This document shows, piece by piece, positions 6,583 to 11,609 of a stretch of DNA of 64,000 nucleotides (positions within the stretch are counted from its first letter, which is position 1; every line of letters begins with the position of its first letter). A program made the translations under genes and the position numbers. Location of the stretch: positions 62,001 to 126,000 of the forward strand of contig NZ_PVTF01000007.1 of NCBI RefSeq assembly GCF_003002815.1. Reading direction: 5' to 3'. The notes below the pieces were generated by a model, which was not told the origin of the DNA, did no database searches, and saw nothing but the letters and a program-made list of their open reading frames with translations. Origin of the DNA: Umezawaea tangerina (GTDB taxonomy: Bacteria > Actinomycetota > Actinomycetes > Mycobacteriales > Pseudonocardiaceae).

Positions 6583-7128
6583 ATGCCCCGCCTCACCGTC
6601 GTCGACCCCGCCACCGCCGAGCCCCAGGCCCGCGCACTGCTGGGCAAGGTCGAACGCGCACTCGGCGTGACCCCGAACATGATGAAGTCGATGGCGACCT
6701 CGCCCGCCGTGCTCGACGCCTACCTGTCCTTCAGCGGCGCGCTGGCCAAGGGACGGCTGTCGGCCGCGGTCCGGGAGCAGATCGCCCTCGTCACCGCCGT
6801 GGCCAACGAGTGCGGGTACTGCCTGGCGGCCCACACCGTCCTGGGTGCCAAGGCCGGGGTCAGCGACGAGGACCTCGTCTCGGGCCGCCACGCCCGCGCC
6901 GCCGACCCGAAGGTCGAGGCCGCCCTGCGGTTCACCCTCGCCGTCATCACCACCAAGGGGTTCGTCAGCGACGACGCCCTCGCCGACGTCCGCGCCGCGG
7001 GCTACGACGACGGCGAGATCGGCGAGATCGTCGCCGCCGTCGCGCTCAACACCTTCACGAACTACTTCAACTCCGTCGGCGAGACCACGCTCGACTTCCC
7101 GGCGGTCGACACGACCATCGCCCACTAG
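6583..7128 (+). CDS. Carboxymuconolactone decarboxylase / AhpD-like protein
   Basis: A 181-residue all-helical protein of the CMD/AhpD family. The redox signature E-X2-C-X2-C-X3-H is present as NECGYCLAAH near residue 70, which marks the peroxidase-like (AhpD/YciW-type) branch. The active-site cysteines normally work with peroxiredoxins or as a stand-alone hydroperoxidase; the physiological substrate is uncertain. The ATG at 6583 follows GGAAGGA. It is followed by a strong hairpin, so it is probably monocistronic and separate from the fkbH unit downstream. Confidence 0.9.
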   Translation: MPRLTVVDPATAEPQARALLGKVERALGVTPNMMKSMATSPAVLDAYLSFSGALAKGRLSAAVREQIALVTAVANECGYCLAAHTVLGAKAGVSDEDLVSGRHARAADPKVEAALRFTLAVITTKGFVSDDALADVRAAGYDDGEIGEIVAAVALNTFTNYFNSVGETTLDFPAVDTTIAH

Positions 7129-7268: not shown

Positions 7269-8885
7269 GTGATCGGGACTTCGGCACAGGAAGCCCCGGA
7301 CGGACTCGACATCGTGGTCGCCTCCACCTTCACGAGCACGCCCGTGGTCCCGCTACTGGAGCACCTGAACAAGAAGCGCGGCTTCGACGCGACGGTCACG
7401 TCCGCGCCCTACGGCCAGGTGGTCGAACAGCTGCTCAACCCCGCGAGCGCGTTCGCCCGCAACACGACCGGCCTGGACGTCTGCCTGACCCGTCCCGGCG
7501 ACTGGGCTCCTGAGGGATCCCCACCCGACGACTTCCGGGAGTCCTTGCGGTACATGGCCTCCGCCGTCGCCGACTTCGCCGGGCGCCACCGCGGACACCT
7601 GGTGGTCTGCGTGCTCCCGGACCCGCCGGGGCGCCGGACCGCGGGTCTCGGCACCGAGCTCGTCGACCTGCTCACGGGAGTGGAGGGGGTCGCGGTCGTC
7701 AGGGCCGAGGACTGGTTCCTCGCCTACGGGATCGACGACCCCGCGGACTCCCACGCCGCGGCGCTCGCCGACGTGCCGTTCACCGACGAGGCGTTCGCGG
7801 CCGTCGCGATAGGACTGACGCGGGTCGTGGCCTCCTTGCGGGGCAGGCCGCGCAAGGTGATCGCCGTCGACTGCGACTACACGCTGTGGGGTGGCGCCTG
7901 CGGTGACCTCGACCCGGCCGAGCTGACGATCGACGACCGGTACCGGGGTGTGCAGCGGTTCCTGCGCGAACGGCACGACGCCGGGTTCATGCTGGTGGTC
8001 TGCAGCCGCAACGACCCGGCGAGCGTCGACCGCGTGTTCGCCGAACGGGCCGACGACCTCCTGCTCACCCCGGAGCACTTCGTCGGCAGGCGGGTCGACT
8101 GGGAACCGAAGTGGCGCAACCTCAACTCCTTGGCCGCCGAGCTCGGCGTCGGCGTGGACAGCTTCGTGCTCGTCGACGACGACCCGCTGACCTGCGCGCA
8201 GACGGCCGAGGCGCTGCCGTCGATCGGAGTGGTGCGGCTGCCGGTGGACGCCGACCCGCTCGTGCGCCTGAAGCGCAGCCCGCACTTCGACCGGTTCTTC
8301 GTCACGCGGGAGGACCGGCTGCGCAACCAGAGCTACCGCGGGGAGGTGCTGCGGGCGCGGGAGGTCGGCACCATCAGCAGTCCCGAGGAGCTCAACGCCC
8401 GGCTGGGCACCGACATCGAGGTGGTCCCGGTGCGCCGGGAGCACTGGCGGCGCGTCGAGCAGCTGGCCGCCCGGACCAACCAGTTCACCTGCGCCACCAT
8501 GACACCCGCGCGGGTGGCGGCGGCGCTGCGCGAGGGCGCGGCGGGCTGGGTCGTCTCGCTGCGGGACCGGTTCGGCGACTACGGGGTCGTGGGTGCGGCG
8601 GTGGCCGCCGAGAGCGGCGGCCACTGGCACGTCGACGCGCTGATGATGAGCTGCCGGGCGCTGAACCGGGGAGTCGCGGAGGCGTTGCTGGCCACCGTGG
8701 TCCGGGCGGGGGAGAGCGCGGGGCTCCTGGGGACGCGCGTCTCGGTCCACCCCACCGGGCGCAACGCGCTCGCCGTCGACTTCCTCACCCAGCGGTCCAC
8801 CGACGTCAGCGTCCAGGCGGACGGTGGACTCCTCATGACCATCGCCCGGACGGACCCGGCGCGAGCGGAAGGACCACGCGGATGA
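7269..8885 (+). CDS. FkbH-like HAD phosphatase / glyceryl transferase
   Basis: A 538-residue FkbH-family protein. Residues about 1-180 form the N-terminal region of long FkbH proteins. Around residue 200 is the HAD motif VDCDYTLWGG (DxDxT), and near 303 is VDDDP. Residues about 390-530 look like an acyltransferase (GNAT-like) domain. Characterised FkbH enzymes take D-1,3-bisphosphoglycerate, dephosphorylate it and load glycerate onto an acyl carrier protein. The GTG at 7269 follows AAAGGAAGG. The stop overlaps the next ATG (ATGA), and the next protein carries a carrier domain, a natural acceptor. No PKS lies nearby. Confidence 0.88.
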   Translation: MIGTSAQEAPDGLDIVVASTFTSTPVVPLLEHLNKKRGFDATVTSAPYGQVVEQLLNPASAFARNTTGLDVCLTRPGDWAPEGSPPDDFRESLRYMASAVADFAGRHRGHLVVCVLPDPPGRRTAGLGTELVDLLTGVEGVAVVRAEDWFLAYGIDDPADSHAAALADVPFTDEAFAAVAIGLTRVVASLRGRPRKVIAVDCDYTLWGGACGDLDPAELTIDDRYRGVQRFLRERHDAGFMLVVCSRNDPASVDRVFAERADDLLLTPEHFVGRRVDWEPKWRNLNSLAAELGVGVDSFVLVDDDPLTCAQTAEALPSIGVVRLPVDADPLVRLKRSPHFDRFFVTREDRLRNQSYRGEVLRAREVGTISSPEELNARLGTDIEVVPVRREHWRRVEQLAARTNQFTCATMTPARVAAALREGAAGWVVSLRDRFGDYGVVGAAVAAESGGHWHVDALMMSCRALNRGVAEALLATVVRAGESAGLLGTRVSVHPTGRNALAVDFLTQRSTDVSVQADGGLLMTIARTDPARAEGPRG

Positions 8886-10237
8886 CCGAGTGGAACGAGA
8901 CGAGCCCCGCCGCGCTGGTCGCCGCCGTGCGGCGGCAGCACCTGGCGTCCGCCGACCGGGCGGCGCGGGTGCGCCGGTTCCTCGCGCTCAACAACGGCGT
9001 GGAGCACGTCGACGTGCGGGTCGAGTCCTCCGGCCGGTTGCGCGCGGTGGTGTGGGTGGCCCCCACACCGAGCGGGTTGGCGAAGCGCGAGCTGCCCGAC
9101 GGCACCGTCCTCACCGAGCTGAACCGGTACGAGACCACCTACCTGCACCAGGAGGTGCTGGTGGACCAGGCCTACCGCCTCGACGTCCTGGACCTGCCGC
9201 CGGACGCCGTGGTGCTCGACGTCGGCGCGAACATCGGGATGTTCTCCCTGGCCGTGGCCCGCACGCTGCCGCGGTGCCGGGTGGTGGCCTTCGAACCGGC
9301 GCCGGACGCGTACGCCGCGCTGGTCGCCAACGTCGAGGACCTCGCGCTCCCGGTGGTGTGCCTGCCGTGGGCGCTCGGCGCCGAGTCGGGGCGCACCACC
9401 ATGACCGTCTACCCGACCGCCTCGGTGTTCTCCGGTCTGCACGCGGACCCGGACGCGGACCGGTCGGCGATCCGGGCCGCGGTCGGCGGCGCGGTGGACG
9501 ACGACAGCAGCGCGGAGATCGTCGACCGGGTCGCCGCGGACCGGGTCGGGAGCGCGGTCGACGTGCCGGTCGAGGTGCGCCGACTGCCCGACGTGCTCGA
9601 CCAGCTGGACATCGGTCGGGTCGACCTGCTCAAGCTGGACGCGGAGGGCGCCGAACCGGACATCCTGCGCGGCCTGCGCCCGCAGGACTGGGCGCGGATC
9701 GGCAACGTCGTCATGGAGGCGCACACCCCCGAGGACCGGCGGGTTCTCCTGTCACTGCTGGAGGACGCCGGGTTCACCTGCGAGGTGACCGAGGTGGCGG
9801 CGCTGGAGGGCACCGGCTTCACCACCCTGCACGCCACCCGGCCGGACGCGTCCCGGCGGACGACCGTCCGGACGGGACCGCTGTCGCCGGAACCGATCCC
9901 GCCCCTGACCGCGCGGCAACGACTGCGCCTGGCCCTGCACGGCTTGCCGGGCGCCGACGACGTCGACCTGGAGGTGCGTCCGGGACCACCACCGGAGAGC
10001 GCCGCCGGTCTGGTCGCGCCCGAGTCGGTGCCGGGCGTCGTGGAGGCGTGGCAGCGCACCGTCGGAACCCCGCCCGCGGGCGCCGCGGACTTCTTCGAGG
10101 CCGGCGGCACCTCGCTGCTGGCCGTGCGCATGCTGTCGCGGCTGCGCCGGGAGTACGGCTACGAGCTCTGGCTGGACGAGTTCCTCCGGTCGCCGACCGC
10201 CGCGACGCTGGCCGCGCTCTGCACCAGGAACACCTGA
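8882..10237 (+). CDS. FkbM-type methyltransferase fused to an acyl/peptidyl carrier domain
   Basis: A 451-residue two-part protein. Residues about 30-330 form an FkbM-family SAM methyltransferase: SAM motif I is VVLDVGANIGMFSLAVA near residue 112, with VDLLKLDAEGAE later, typical of FkbM. Residues about 375-450 form a phosphopantetheine carrier domain, DFFEAGGTSLLAVRML, with Ser411 as the predicted attachment site. Known FkbM enzymes O-methylate hydroxyls of natural products. The fusion suggests methylation of a substrate tethered to the same chain, probably the glyceryl unit loaded by FkbH. Translation is coupled to fkbH. A PPTase is not present in the window. Confidence 0.87.
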   Translation: MTEWNETSPAALVAAVRRQHLASADRAARVRRFLALNNGVEHVDVRVESSGRLRAVVWVAPTPSGLAKRELPDGTVLTELNRYETTYLHQEVLVDQAYRLDVLDLPPDAVVLDVGANIGMFSLAVARTLPRCRVVAFEPAPDAYAALVANVEDLALPVVCLPWALGAESGRTTMTVYPTASVFSGLHADPDADRSAIRAAVGGAVDDDSSAEIVDRVAADRVGSAVDVPVEVRRLPDVLDQLDIGRVDLLKLDAEGAEPDILRGLRPQDWARIGNVVMEAHTPEDRRVLLSLLEDAGFTCEVTEVAALEGTGFTTLHATRPDASRRTTVRTGPLSPEPIPPLTARQRLRLALHGLPGADDVDLEVRPGPPPESAAGLVAPESVPGVVEAWQRTVGTPPAGAADFFEAGGTSLLAVRMLSRLRREYGYELWLDEFLRSPTAATLAALCTRNT

Positions 10238-10263
10238 CCCACACCGAAACAGGAGGTACCACC

Positions 10264-10650
10264 ATGAAGTTCATCAGCTCCACCGAGATGCGGGACATCC
10301 CGCCGCTGCCCGAGCAGTACCACGCGCACTTCACCGGCGAAACGGCGCTGGAGGAGCTGCACGCCGGCGCCACGCCCGACGACGCGAGCGTGCTGCTCGT
10401 CCGCTTCGAACCGGGAGCCCGCAACAACTGGCACTCGCACACCGGCGGCCAGCTGCTGTTCGTGACCGACGGGGAGGGCTACGTCCAGGCGCGCGGCGAG
10501 GCACCGGTCCTCGTCCGCGCGGGTGACGCGGTGGCGTGCCCGCCCGACGAGGAGCACTGGCACGGCGCGACCCCGGAAGGTCCGGGGATGACCCACCTCG
10601 CGGTCACCTACGGGAAGATCGTCTGGTTGGACGGGCACGAGCCGCACTAG
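10264..10650 (+). CDS. Small cupin protein
   Basis: A 128-residue single-domain cupin. Metal-binding motif 1 is WHSHTGGQLLFVTDGEG and motif 2 is PPDEEHWHGATPE, so the usual His/Glu ligands are present. It resembles the (R)-mandelonitrile-lyase-like / YlbA-like small cupins often annotated as carboxymuconolactone decarboxylase partners; the real reaction is unknown. The ATG follows AGGAGG. It is 26 bases downstream of the FkbM-carrier gene and 35 bases upstream of the dehydrogenase, all on one strand, so it is probably a dedicated step on the carrier-bound or released C3 product. Confidence 0.85.
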   Translation: MKFISSTEMRDIPPLPEQYHAHFTGETALEELHAGATPDDASVLLVRFEPGARNNWHSHTGGQLLFVTDGEGYVQARGEAPVLVRAGDAVACPPDEEHWHGATPEGPGMTHLAVTYGKIVWLDGHEPH

Positions 10651-10685
10651 CACACCCGACCACCACCTCAGGAGGAACGACCACA

Positions 10686-11609
10686 ATGGACACCACTGGT
10701 GCGGGAGGCGGACCACGGGTCGCCTTCATCGGCCTGGGCACCATGGGGCGGCCGATGGCCCGACGGCTGCTGGCGGGAGGCTGCGACCTCGCAGTGTTCG
10801 ACACCGCGCCCGCCGCGATGCGGCCGCTGCTGGACGCCGGGGCCCGAGCGGCGGCCTCCCCGGCCGACGCGGCCCGGCGCGCCGACTTCGTGATCACCAT
10901 GCTGCCCGACGGCCGCCGCGTCCTGGAGGCCACCACCGGTCCGACGGGCGCCTTGTCCGGCGCACCACCCGGAAGCGTCCTCATCGACATGAGCACGGTC
11001 GACCCGGCCACGAGCCGGGCCGTCGCCTTCGAGGCGGAGCGCGAGGGGGTGAGGATGCTGGACGCACCGGTCAGCGGCTCCAGCGCCGGAGCCGTCGACG
11101 GCTCGCTCACCATCATGGTCGGTGGCAGCGCCGAGGTGCTGGACCGCAGCAGGCGGCTGCTGTCCCTGCTCGGCGGCAAGATCGTCCACTGCGGGGCGAC
11201 CGGCATGGGCACCACCGTCAAGCTGGCGAACCAGGTCATGGCGGGGATCTCGATGGTCGCCGTGGCGGAGGGCTTCCGCCTCTCCCAGGCCCTCGGCGTC
11301 GACCTGCGGCTGCTCCACGAGGTGACCACGTCCAGCTCCGGCGACAGCTGGCCCCTGCGGACCCGCCCGCCGGTGCCGGGGGTGCTGGCCGCCGGTCCCG
11401 CCGACCACGACTTCGAGCCGGGCTTCCGGAGCGACCTCATGCGCAAGGACCTCGAGCTGGCCCTGAGCGCCGCCGTGGACGCGGGCCTCGACCTGCCCCT
11501 GACCTCCGCCGCCCGCCACCTCTACGCCCGCCTCGGCCCGGCGGGCCTGGGGCACAAGGACTTCTCCGCGGTCATCTCGGTCCTGCCCCGCCGGATCGAC
11601 GGCACCTGA
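10686..11609 (+). CDS. NAD(P)-dependent beta-hydroxyacid dehydrogenase (HIBADH/tartronate-semialdehyde reductase type)
   Basis: A 307-residue member of the 3-hydroxyisobutyrate dehydrogenase family. The Rossmann motif GLGTMGRPMARRL is at residues about 16-28, the substrate segment is DAPVSGSSAGA, and the catalytic lysine lies in TVKLANQVMAG. Family members interconvert beta-hydroxyacids and semialdehydes, including glycerate and tartronate semialdehyde. That chemistry matches an oxidation of glyceryl units, normally done by FkbK in methoxymalonyl-ACP pathways. The ATG at 10686 has AGGAGG about ten bases upstream. It ends the fkbH unit. Confidence 0.88.
   Translation: MDTTGAGGGPRVAFIGLGTMGRPMARRLLAGGCDLAVFDTAPAAMRPLLDAGARAAASPADAARRADFVITMLPDGRRVLEATTGPTGALSGAPPGSVLIDMSTVDPATSRAVAFEAEREGVRMLDAPVSGSSAGAVDGSLTIMVGGSAEVLDRSRRLLSLLGGKIVHCGATGMGTTVKLANQVMAGISMVAVAEGFRLSQALGVDLRLLHEVTTSSSGDSWPLRTRPPVPGVLAAGPADHDFEPGFRSDLMRKDLELALSAAVDAGLDLPLTSAARHLYARLGPAGLGHKDFSAVISVLPRRIDGT

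Follow-up and report, generated by a model that had tools for sequence, protein, structure and literature searches.

A rare, conserved four-gene set of Umezawaea tangerina as a candidate self-contained carrier-protein pathway from a glyceryl unit

What might a predicted glyceryl loader do at a locus where no assembly line is found beside it? Proteins of the FkbH family are known mainly as loaders for polyketide and peptide assembly lines. In Umezawaea tangerina, a 64,000-nucleotide stretch of DNA, here called the window (bases 62001-126000 of contig C7 in a genome of 10.68 Mb), carries at positions 7269-11609 a cassette of four genes on the (+) strand which, read as open reading frames (ORFs), encode an FkbH, an FkbM-family methyltransferase with a carrier domain in the same chain (FkbM-carrier), a cupin and a beta-hydroxyacid dehydrogenase (Table 1). 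The four genes are intact, the set is conserved, the catalytic residues are kept and no synthase match lies nearby. Whether these genes form a self-contained carrier-protein pathway, with glyceryl loading, O-methylation, oxidation at C3 and a cupin step, is to our mind an evenly balanced question, in which we infer all reactions, the order of the steps and the release of the product.

A preliminary description of this stretch had presented the four genes as a compact same-strand unit, with an ATGA overlap between FkbH and FkbM-carrier followed by gaps of 26 and 35 bases, and both the ORF coordinates and the family searches bear this out. A purine-rich ribosome-binding-like stretch precedes each of the four starts, the GC content at third codon positions (GC3) is 0.94-0.96, and there are no internal stops. 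When co-occurrence was looked for, the unit was found conserved, with all four genes in unchanged order, in three genomes. Among the named genomes scanned, one FkbH relative (76% identity) turned up, in Umezawaea endophytica DSM 103496 (G383), where all four genes follow in that order at 76-84% identity; the upstream block (AhpD-like, MarR, catalase) is common to the two species and the downstream genes differ, DNA similarity restarting 28 bases inside FkbH and stopping 6 bases past the dehydrogenase stop. The third copy, in another genus of the family (G017), shows the identical four-gene order at 49-62% identity with spacings, by the coordinates, of 14, 1 and 1 bases, and has unrelated flanks (ROK, TauD, chorismate-binding enzyme, SDR, luciferase-like, radical SAM). 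The grouping is more than chance, since two genomes besides that of the window, one from another genus, show this gene order again. Furthermore, when the two Umezawaea copies are compared, the ratio of nonsynonymous to synonymous substitution rates (dN/dS) comes to 0.33-0.44 in the cassette genes, all four included (based on 271 codons for the dehydrogenase), against 0.19-0.25 for three neighbours, so that the cassette genes are kept, yet are changing faster than their neighbours.

Table 1 Features of the cassette and its upstream neighbour, in window coordinates.
Feature	Position	Strand	Basis or remark
FkbH (HAD-IIIC phosphatase + GNAT-like acyltransferase; predicted glyceryl loader)	7269..8885	+	GTG start; TIGR01686 216.6 bits
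FkbM-family methyltransferase + C-terminal peptidyl-type carrier domain, fused	8882..10237	+	PF05050 residues 113-298, PF00550 residues 386-446
FkbM methyltransferase domain with VVLDVGANIG motif	9218..9775	+	Pfam and orthologue alignment
Carrier domain (phosphopantetheine site)	10037..10219	+	PF00550 42.4 bits
Ser411 codon, predicted phosphopantetheine attachment serine in GGTSL	10112..10114	+	Orthologue alignment
Small metal-type cupin, TM1010 / hydroxynitrile-lyase group	10264..10650	+	Cupin_2; NF049940 111.3 bits, below cut-off 140
3-Hydroxyisobutyrate-dehydrogenase-type beta-hydroxyacid dehydrogenase	10686..11609	+	TIGR01692 295.7 bits, cut-off 291.6
AhpD/CMD-family gene, 140 bases upstream of FkbH	6583..7128	+	PF02627; judged outside the unit

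Synthase genes were searched for with one ketosynthase (KS) query and one nonribosomal peptide synthetase (NRPS) query at 1e-5. Nothing other than FkbM-carrier itself was matched in the window and the 20 kb upstream of it, in 60 kb of G017, or in U. endophytica over 40 kb (of which the contig end leaves about 8 kb downstream of the cassette). The earlier statement that the 64 kb hold neither polyketide synthase (PKS) nor NRPS is thus upheld at this threshold, and the notion that homologous clusters might always adjoin a PKS, which had been named as a test of the idea, does not apply within the examined sequence of the three copies.

The cassette is also set apart within its family. An FkbH search over 390 family genomes matched 110 of them at 1e-30, the three FkbHs that include the one in the window being at least 50% identical and the others listed at most 38%. 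Wider FkbH searches in overlapping samples, covering 394 genomes of the class, 296 of the phylum and 392 of the genus of G751, yielded no further cassette-grade match; those in the families of G405 (250 genomes) and G587 (35 genomes) were empty, an emptiness that shows little by itself. From the better matches we picked 84 other FkbH neighbourhoods, mostly of 20 kb, leaving out 7 of the 20 class-search places (in frames of 2458-5056 aa) and lower-scoring family-search places, and taking only G751 from the 8 places of the search in its genus. Cassette cupin or dehydrogenase matches at 1e-5 occur in none of the 84, KS, NRPS or ketoacyl synthase III (KASIII) matches, by our thresholds, in 66 (in L125 via a match overlapping an FkbM gene), and 23 are tetronate-type. 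Phrogs gave no useful match. The combination of FkbH, FkbM and cupin was not found in the open-licence literature, a search there for paired O-methylglycerate terms found nothing either, and nothing decisive came from it beyond PMC8949500. Each domain is known, and the four-gene synthase-free combination, not found described in that literature, is conserved and rare.

The FkbH of the window lies well above the curated TIGR01686 cut-off (216.6 against 146.65 bits) and has the HAD-IIIC and acyltransferase architecture together with the DxDxT, Lys, DD and Cys residues, which we take to play their usual roles. Asp201, Asp203, Thr205, Asn248, Lys281, Asp303, Asp304 and Cys462 are invariant in 87 of 87 FkbH rows, comprising the 84 others and the three from the cassette. 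A structure model with a predicted local distance difference test score (pLDDT) of 87 matches the HAD phosphatases BF1531 and MDP-1 as well as many GNAT acyltransferases, a modelled fold in line with a transferase/phosphatase. In a tree of the 87 rows, the three cassette proteins form one clade (100 in the Shimodaira-Hasegawa-like approximate likelihood ratio test, SH-aLRT), outside a 27-row clade, 23 of whose rows are tetronate-type, that holds the genome's own second FkbH on C15; as the tree comes from a quick search with long branches flagged, we rely on the tight cassette clade alone. An acyl-CoA-dehydrogenase query matched in 8 of the 87 FkbH loci, in none of them adjoining FkbH, so that none of these loci could be recognised as methoxymalonyl-type, and the placement of the cassette FkbH does not extend to true methoxymalonyl FkbHs.

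In the second protein, PF05050 (Methyltransf_21) and a PP-binding domain were found by Pfam in a single chain, and the fusion is kept in orthologues 79% and 49% identical. Ser411 within GGTSL is invariant in the three orthologues, and the VVLDVGANIG motif is presumably of the S-adenosylmethionine-binding type. The structure model (mean pLDDT 61) is readable as a class I methyltransferase fold only. The fused acyl carrier protein (ACP) had been put forward as a mark of distinction, of which the fusion itself stands and its unusualness does not: 42 plasmid records match FkbM-carrier, and in 19 the match spans 80% or more of the query. Among the 20 listed, many carry an NRPS annotation; the stretches of FkbM and peptidyl carrier protein (PCP) on plasmids are about 26-33% identical to the cassette protein, and ORFs with FkbM, FkbH and carrier exist elsewhere. 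No FkbH match was present in five plasmid regions around FkbM-carrier relatives.

Three ORFs joining FkbM to FkbH come from genomes whose hosts we take, from the placement of U. endophytica, to be Pseudonocardiaceae. In G097 (L106) a single ORF holds a PKS dehydratase, FkbM, FkbH and a carrier; in G253 (L044) FkbM lies between an N-terminal FkbH piece and the HAD part, with a carrier after; and in G148 (L105) FkbM directly precedes FkbH. Unlike the cassette, these ORFs are PKS/NRPS-type or lie beside KS/NRPS matches, and they come with no cassette cupin or dehydrogenase match. When the cassette FkbM domain was searched against nine genomes chosen partly for such ORFs, those of G097 and G148 scored highest outside the cassette (136 bits each), and that of G253 ranked seventh (105 bits), behind FkbMs in other settings; the FkbM domains of the three ORFs are 34-42% identical to that of the cassette.

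The dehydrogenase, an NAD_binding_2/NAD_binding_11 protein by Pfam, had been described as tartronate-semialdehyde-type, which the scores correct to 3-hydroxyisobutyrate dehydrogenase (HIBADH) type: the window copy, at 295.7 bits, lies just above the TIGR01692 cut-off of 291.6 and the G017 copy reaches 318.6 bits, and an identity as tartronate-semialdehyde reductase is ruled out (237.5 bits against a cut-off of 340.75). The genome encodes its own tartronate-semialdehyde reductase (371.7 bits) elsewhere, on contig C4. The U. endophytica copy, taken from too late a start, stays below the HIBADH cut-off at 282.8 bits. The orthologues are 78% and 62% identical, and Lys179 is presumably the catalytic residue. 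Since 2-O-methylglycerate differs from 3-hydroxyisobutyrate in carrying methoxy where the latter has methyl, an enzyme of this type would be sensible as a C3 oxidase.

The cupin group of TM1010 and the hydroxynitrile lyases is known mainly from hydroxynitrile lyase work. The cassette cupin matches structures 2f4p, 4bif, 4uxa and 8oz8 of this group in profile searches, and its His57, His59, Gln63 and His98, which we take to be metal ligands, align with the His, His, Gln and His of those proteins and are invariant in the three copies. Across 220 family genomes the cassette cupins score 254-268 bits and the next best 102. We fetched the 17 cupin loci that scored best outside the cassette: in eight a beta-hydroxyacid dehydrogenase match lies within 1.5 kb (seven directly beside the cupin, one separated from it by another gene), and in four more the cupin adjoins a zinc alcohol dehydrogenase. 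Cupin and alcohol or hydroxyacid dehydrogenase are therefore a recurrent pair, which in the cassette seems to be joined to the pair of FkbH and FkbM-carrier.

Cupins of TM1010 type also stand near HIBADH-superfamily dehydrogenases in four catabolic-looking operons (L203-L206, in G280, G029, G022 and G275), where CMD-family genes accompany one or two beta-hydroxyacid dehydrogenases. By Pfam, L203 further encodes a metallo-beta-lactamase, and an alpha/beta hydrolase is found in L205; L204 is similar by eye. From the cassette they differ in this catabolic look, in the CMD genes, in that no carrier was seen in them, and in the gap between the cupin scores given above.

Taken together, the four proteins suggest the following route. 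FkbH would dephosphorylate D-1,3-bisphosphoglycerate, a three-carbon compound of sugar breakdown, and move the glyceryl group, probably via Cys462, to the phosphopantetheine on Ser411, where the fused FkbM domain would O-methylate it, most likely at C2, to give 2-O-methylglyceryl-S-carrier. The HIBADH-type enzyme would oxidise the C3 alcohol, either on the carrier or once released, and the metal cupin might act on the resulting beta-aldehyde by enolisation, by C-C cleavage or by helping release. Loading and methylation have close precedents; oxidation, the cupin step and release are what we infer. The ORFs of G097, G253 and G148 are precedents for FkbM working together with FkbH, in the first two on a carrier. 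For loading and methylation the suomilide loading modules (FkbH, O-methyltransferase (OMT), sulfotransferase and PCP) offer the best precedent, being proposed to turn carrier-bound glycerate into 2-O-methylglycerate 3-sulfate by methylation and sulfation (PMC13122637, PMC8609519). The suomilide, banyaside and dysinosin NRPS loading modules (SuoB, BslA) resemble the cassette in domain content, with FkbH, OMT and carrier and a proposed 2-O-methylglyceryl-S-PCP, although their OMT is not necessarily FkbM-type. They are part of an NRPS and include a sulfotransferase domain, whereas the cassette consists of two small proteins plus cupin and dehydrogenase with no NRPS match nearby.

That 1,3-bisphosphoglycerate is converted in this way into a free C3 metabolite, 2-methoxy-3-oxopropanoate or the product of the cupin, on a single methyltransferase-carrier protein and with no assembly line, is a more tentative proposition; as no assembly line is found beside the four genes, the product may be new. 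If the proposal is true, carrier-bound glycerate chemistry may stand alone as a small-molecule pathway, with FkbH used outside polyketides and peptides, and a cupin group that we associate mainly with hydroxynitrile lyase work would gain a natural reaction. With a length of about 4.3 kb, the complete cassette would lend itself to expression in a laboratory host.

Several findings weigh against this route. Only three genomes were found to hold the complete set. The cassette FkbHs have Thr or Val for Glu308 and Ala for Glu470, positions at each of which 82 of the 84 others have Glu and the two non-cassette exceptions carry other replacements, so that the substrate may differ. The three cassette cupins score 111.3, 105.3 and 117.3 bits with NF049940, the (R)-mandelonitrile lyase cupin model, against a cut-off of 140, and we found no natural reaction for the TM1010/hydroxynitrile-lyase cupin group. 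Of the 17 cupin loci, five have no match to either kind of dehydrogenase, and the eight with a beta-hydroxyacid dehydrogenase are confined to two genera (g5, g31). Finally, the four genes have no conserved companion that is a thioesterase, a hydrolase or an acceptor enzyme, which leaves release unexplained.

Supply in trans survives best among the alternatives, though we hold it to be rather unlikely. Here the 2-O-methylglyceryl- or oxidised C3-S-carrier would be passed to a distant PKS or NRPS as starter or extender, as would suit three genomes with at least 145 carrier-domain matches each and the frequency of KS, NRPS or KASIII matches in other FkbH neighbourhoods. Against such a partner, none of the three copies has a synthase match near, and the flanks vary between genera, so that there is no fixed neighbour. 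Moreover, with 150 of 183 candidates scored in the U. tangerina genome, the carrier listed next on the window's contig lies some 154 kb away, at C7:226359, and none is listed upstream; in G017 the nearest carrier among the matches listed is at C13:114943, about 67 kb off. These distances cover the two genomes and leave out U. endophytica.

It is improbable, in our estimate, that the cassette is a reduced methoxymalonyl- or hydroxymalonyl-ACP pathway leading to a methoxymalonyl extender, with the HIBADH-type enzyme and the cupin standing in for FkbK and FkbI. FkbK is of the 3-hydroxyacyl-CoA dehydrogenase type and FkbI of the acyl-CoA dehydrogenase type; none of the four cassette genes is of either type, and we know of no aldehyde-oxidising activity in the TM1010/hydroxynitrile-lyase cupin group. 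The methoxymalonyl-ACP sets (FK506/FK520, ansamitocin, tetromadurin; FkbG-K) share FkbH loading, a carrier, O-methylation and C3 oxidation with the cassette, whose FkbH, methyltransferase, carrier and C3 alcohol dehydrogenase would indeed be the right activities. They differ from it in their discrete ACP, FkbK/FkbI-type oxidases and a PKS in the cluster, none of which was found at the cassette, where no PKS match lies nearby. The hydroxymalonyl-type product of the preliminary description is likewise not favoured, because the set is without a second oxidase of the FkbI kind. In favour of the reduced pathway, methylation may come before oxidation in the known one, according to PMC7489565.

Only a slim chance remains for the idea that FkbH loads another phospho-acyl substrate, for example a glycerate-related acyl phosphate, and that the set makes a different small acid. 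The loss of the two otherwise conserved glutamates would fit it, as would the low identity, only 26-35%, between the window FkbH and the 12 rows of alignment A6 from outside the cassette. The fold is retained, however, together with the residues for phosphatase action and acyl transfer, and the pairing with FkbM indicates a hydroxy-acyl substrate. That FkbH and FkbM-carrier are the remnant of a lost assembly line beside an unrelated catabolic pair of cupin and dehydrogenase is very improbable, for although cupin and beta-hydroxyacid dehydrogenase elsewhere share catabolic-looking operons with CMD genes, the same order in two genera, the tight spacing, the kept residues, purifying selection on all four genes and the third copy, in G017, all speak against chance neighbours.

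With the self-contained route still preferred, the cassette can also be compared with the glycerate-utilisation operon of tetronates (FkbH, ACP, FabH-like, acyltransferase, dehydratase). Both combine FkbH and a carrier for glyceryl loading, but the tetronate operon has FabH-like and acyltransferase genes, both of which the cassette lacks, and the cassette FkbH falls outside the tetronate clade. The U. tangerina genome itself has a tetronate-type operon (L095, G000:C15:180000-196000), in which FabH-like, FkbH, ACP and acyltransferase-like genes stand beside a PKS-type ORF (Pfam).

On the upstream side, the AhpD gene was considered as a fifth member and ruled out. It occurs without the cassette in a third Umezawaea genome (G384), which has no FkbH match at 1e-30 and retains the AhpD/MarR block, and it was not found beside the G017 cassette; we therefore read it as a neighbour conserved in Umezawaea and not as a member. 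At the G384 locus (L094:9119-11520; G384:C1), the MarR/AhpD block is accompanied by a fragmented catalase gene and, by eye, a transposase-like stretch right after AhpD. With that stretch and the broken catalase, we do not claim a clean empty site.

FkbH without a nearby PKS, which had been noted at this locus, is confirmed at the cassette within the sequence examined and is not unique to it. Two further loci (L123 and L126) combine FkbH, ACP, Lys/Orn N-oxygenase, MetRS-like and cupin genes with no PKS seen nearby (Pfam for L123 only). These loci (L123:7516-14108 and L126, in G078 and G137) also hold, with FkbH and ACP, a KASIII-like gene, the MetRS-like gene being of the class I (Met) tRNA-synthetase-like kind. 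By our own assumption and by eye, which is also the basis of the KASIII-like label, they may represent a pathway for an N-N bond (hydrazine) combined with glyceryl loading. In addition, FkbH-type genes occur on plasmids of Streptomyces sp. NBC_00209 and Aquisphaera giovannonii (L161, L163) within surface-polysaccharide-like clusters with glycosyltransferases and dTDP-sugar genes, a setting that suggests glycerate decoration of glycans.

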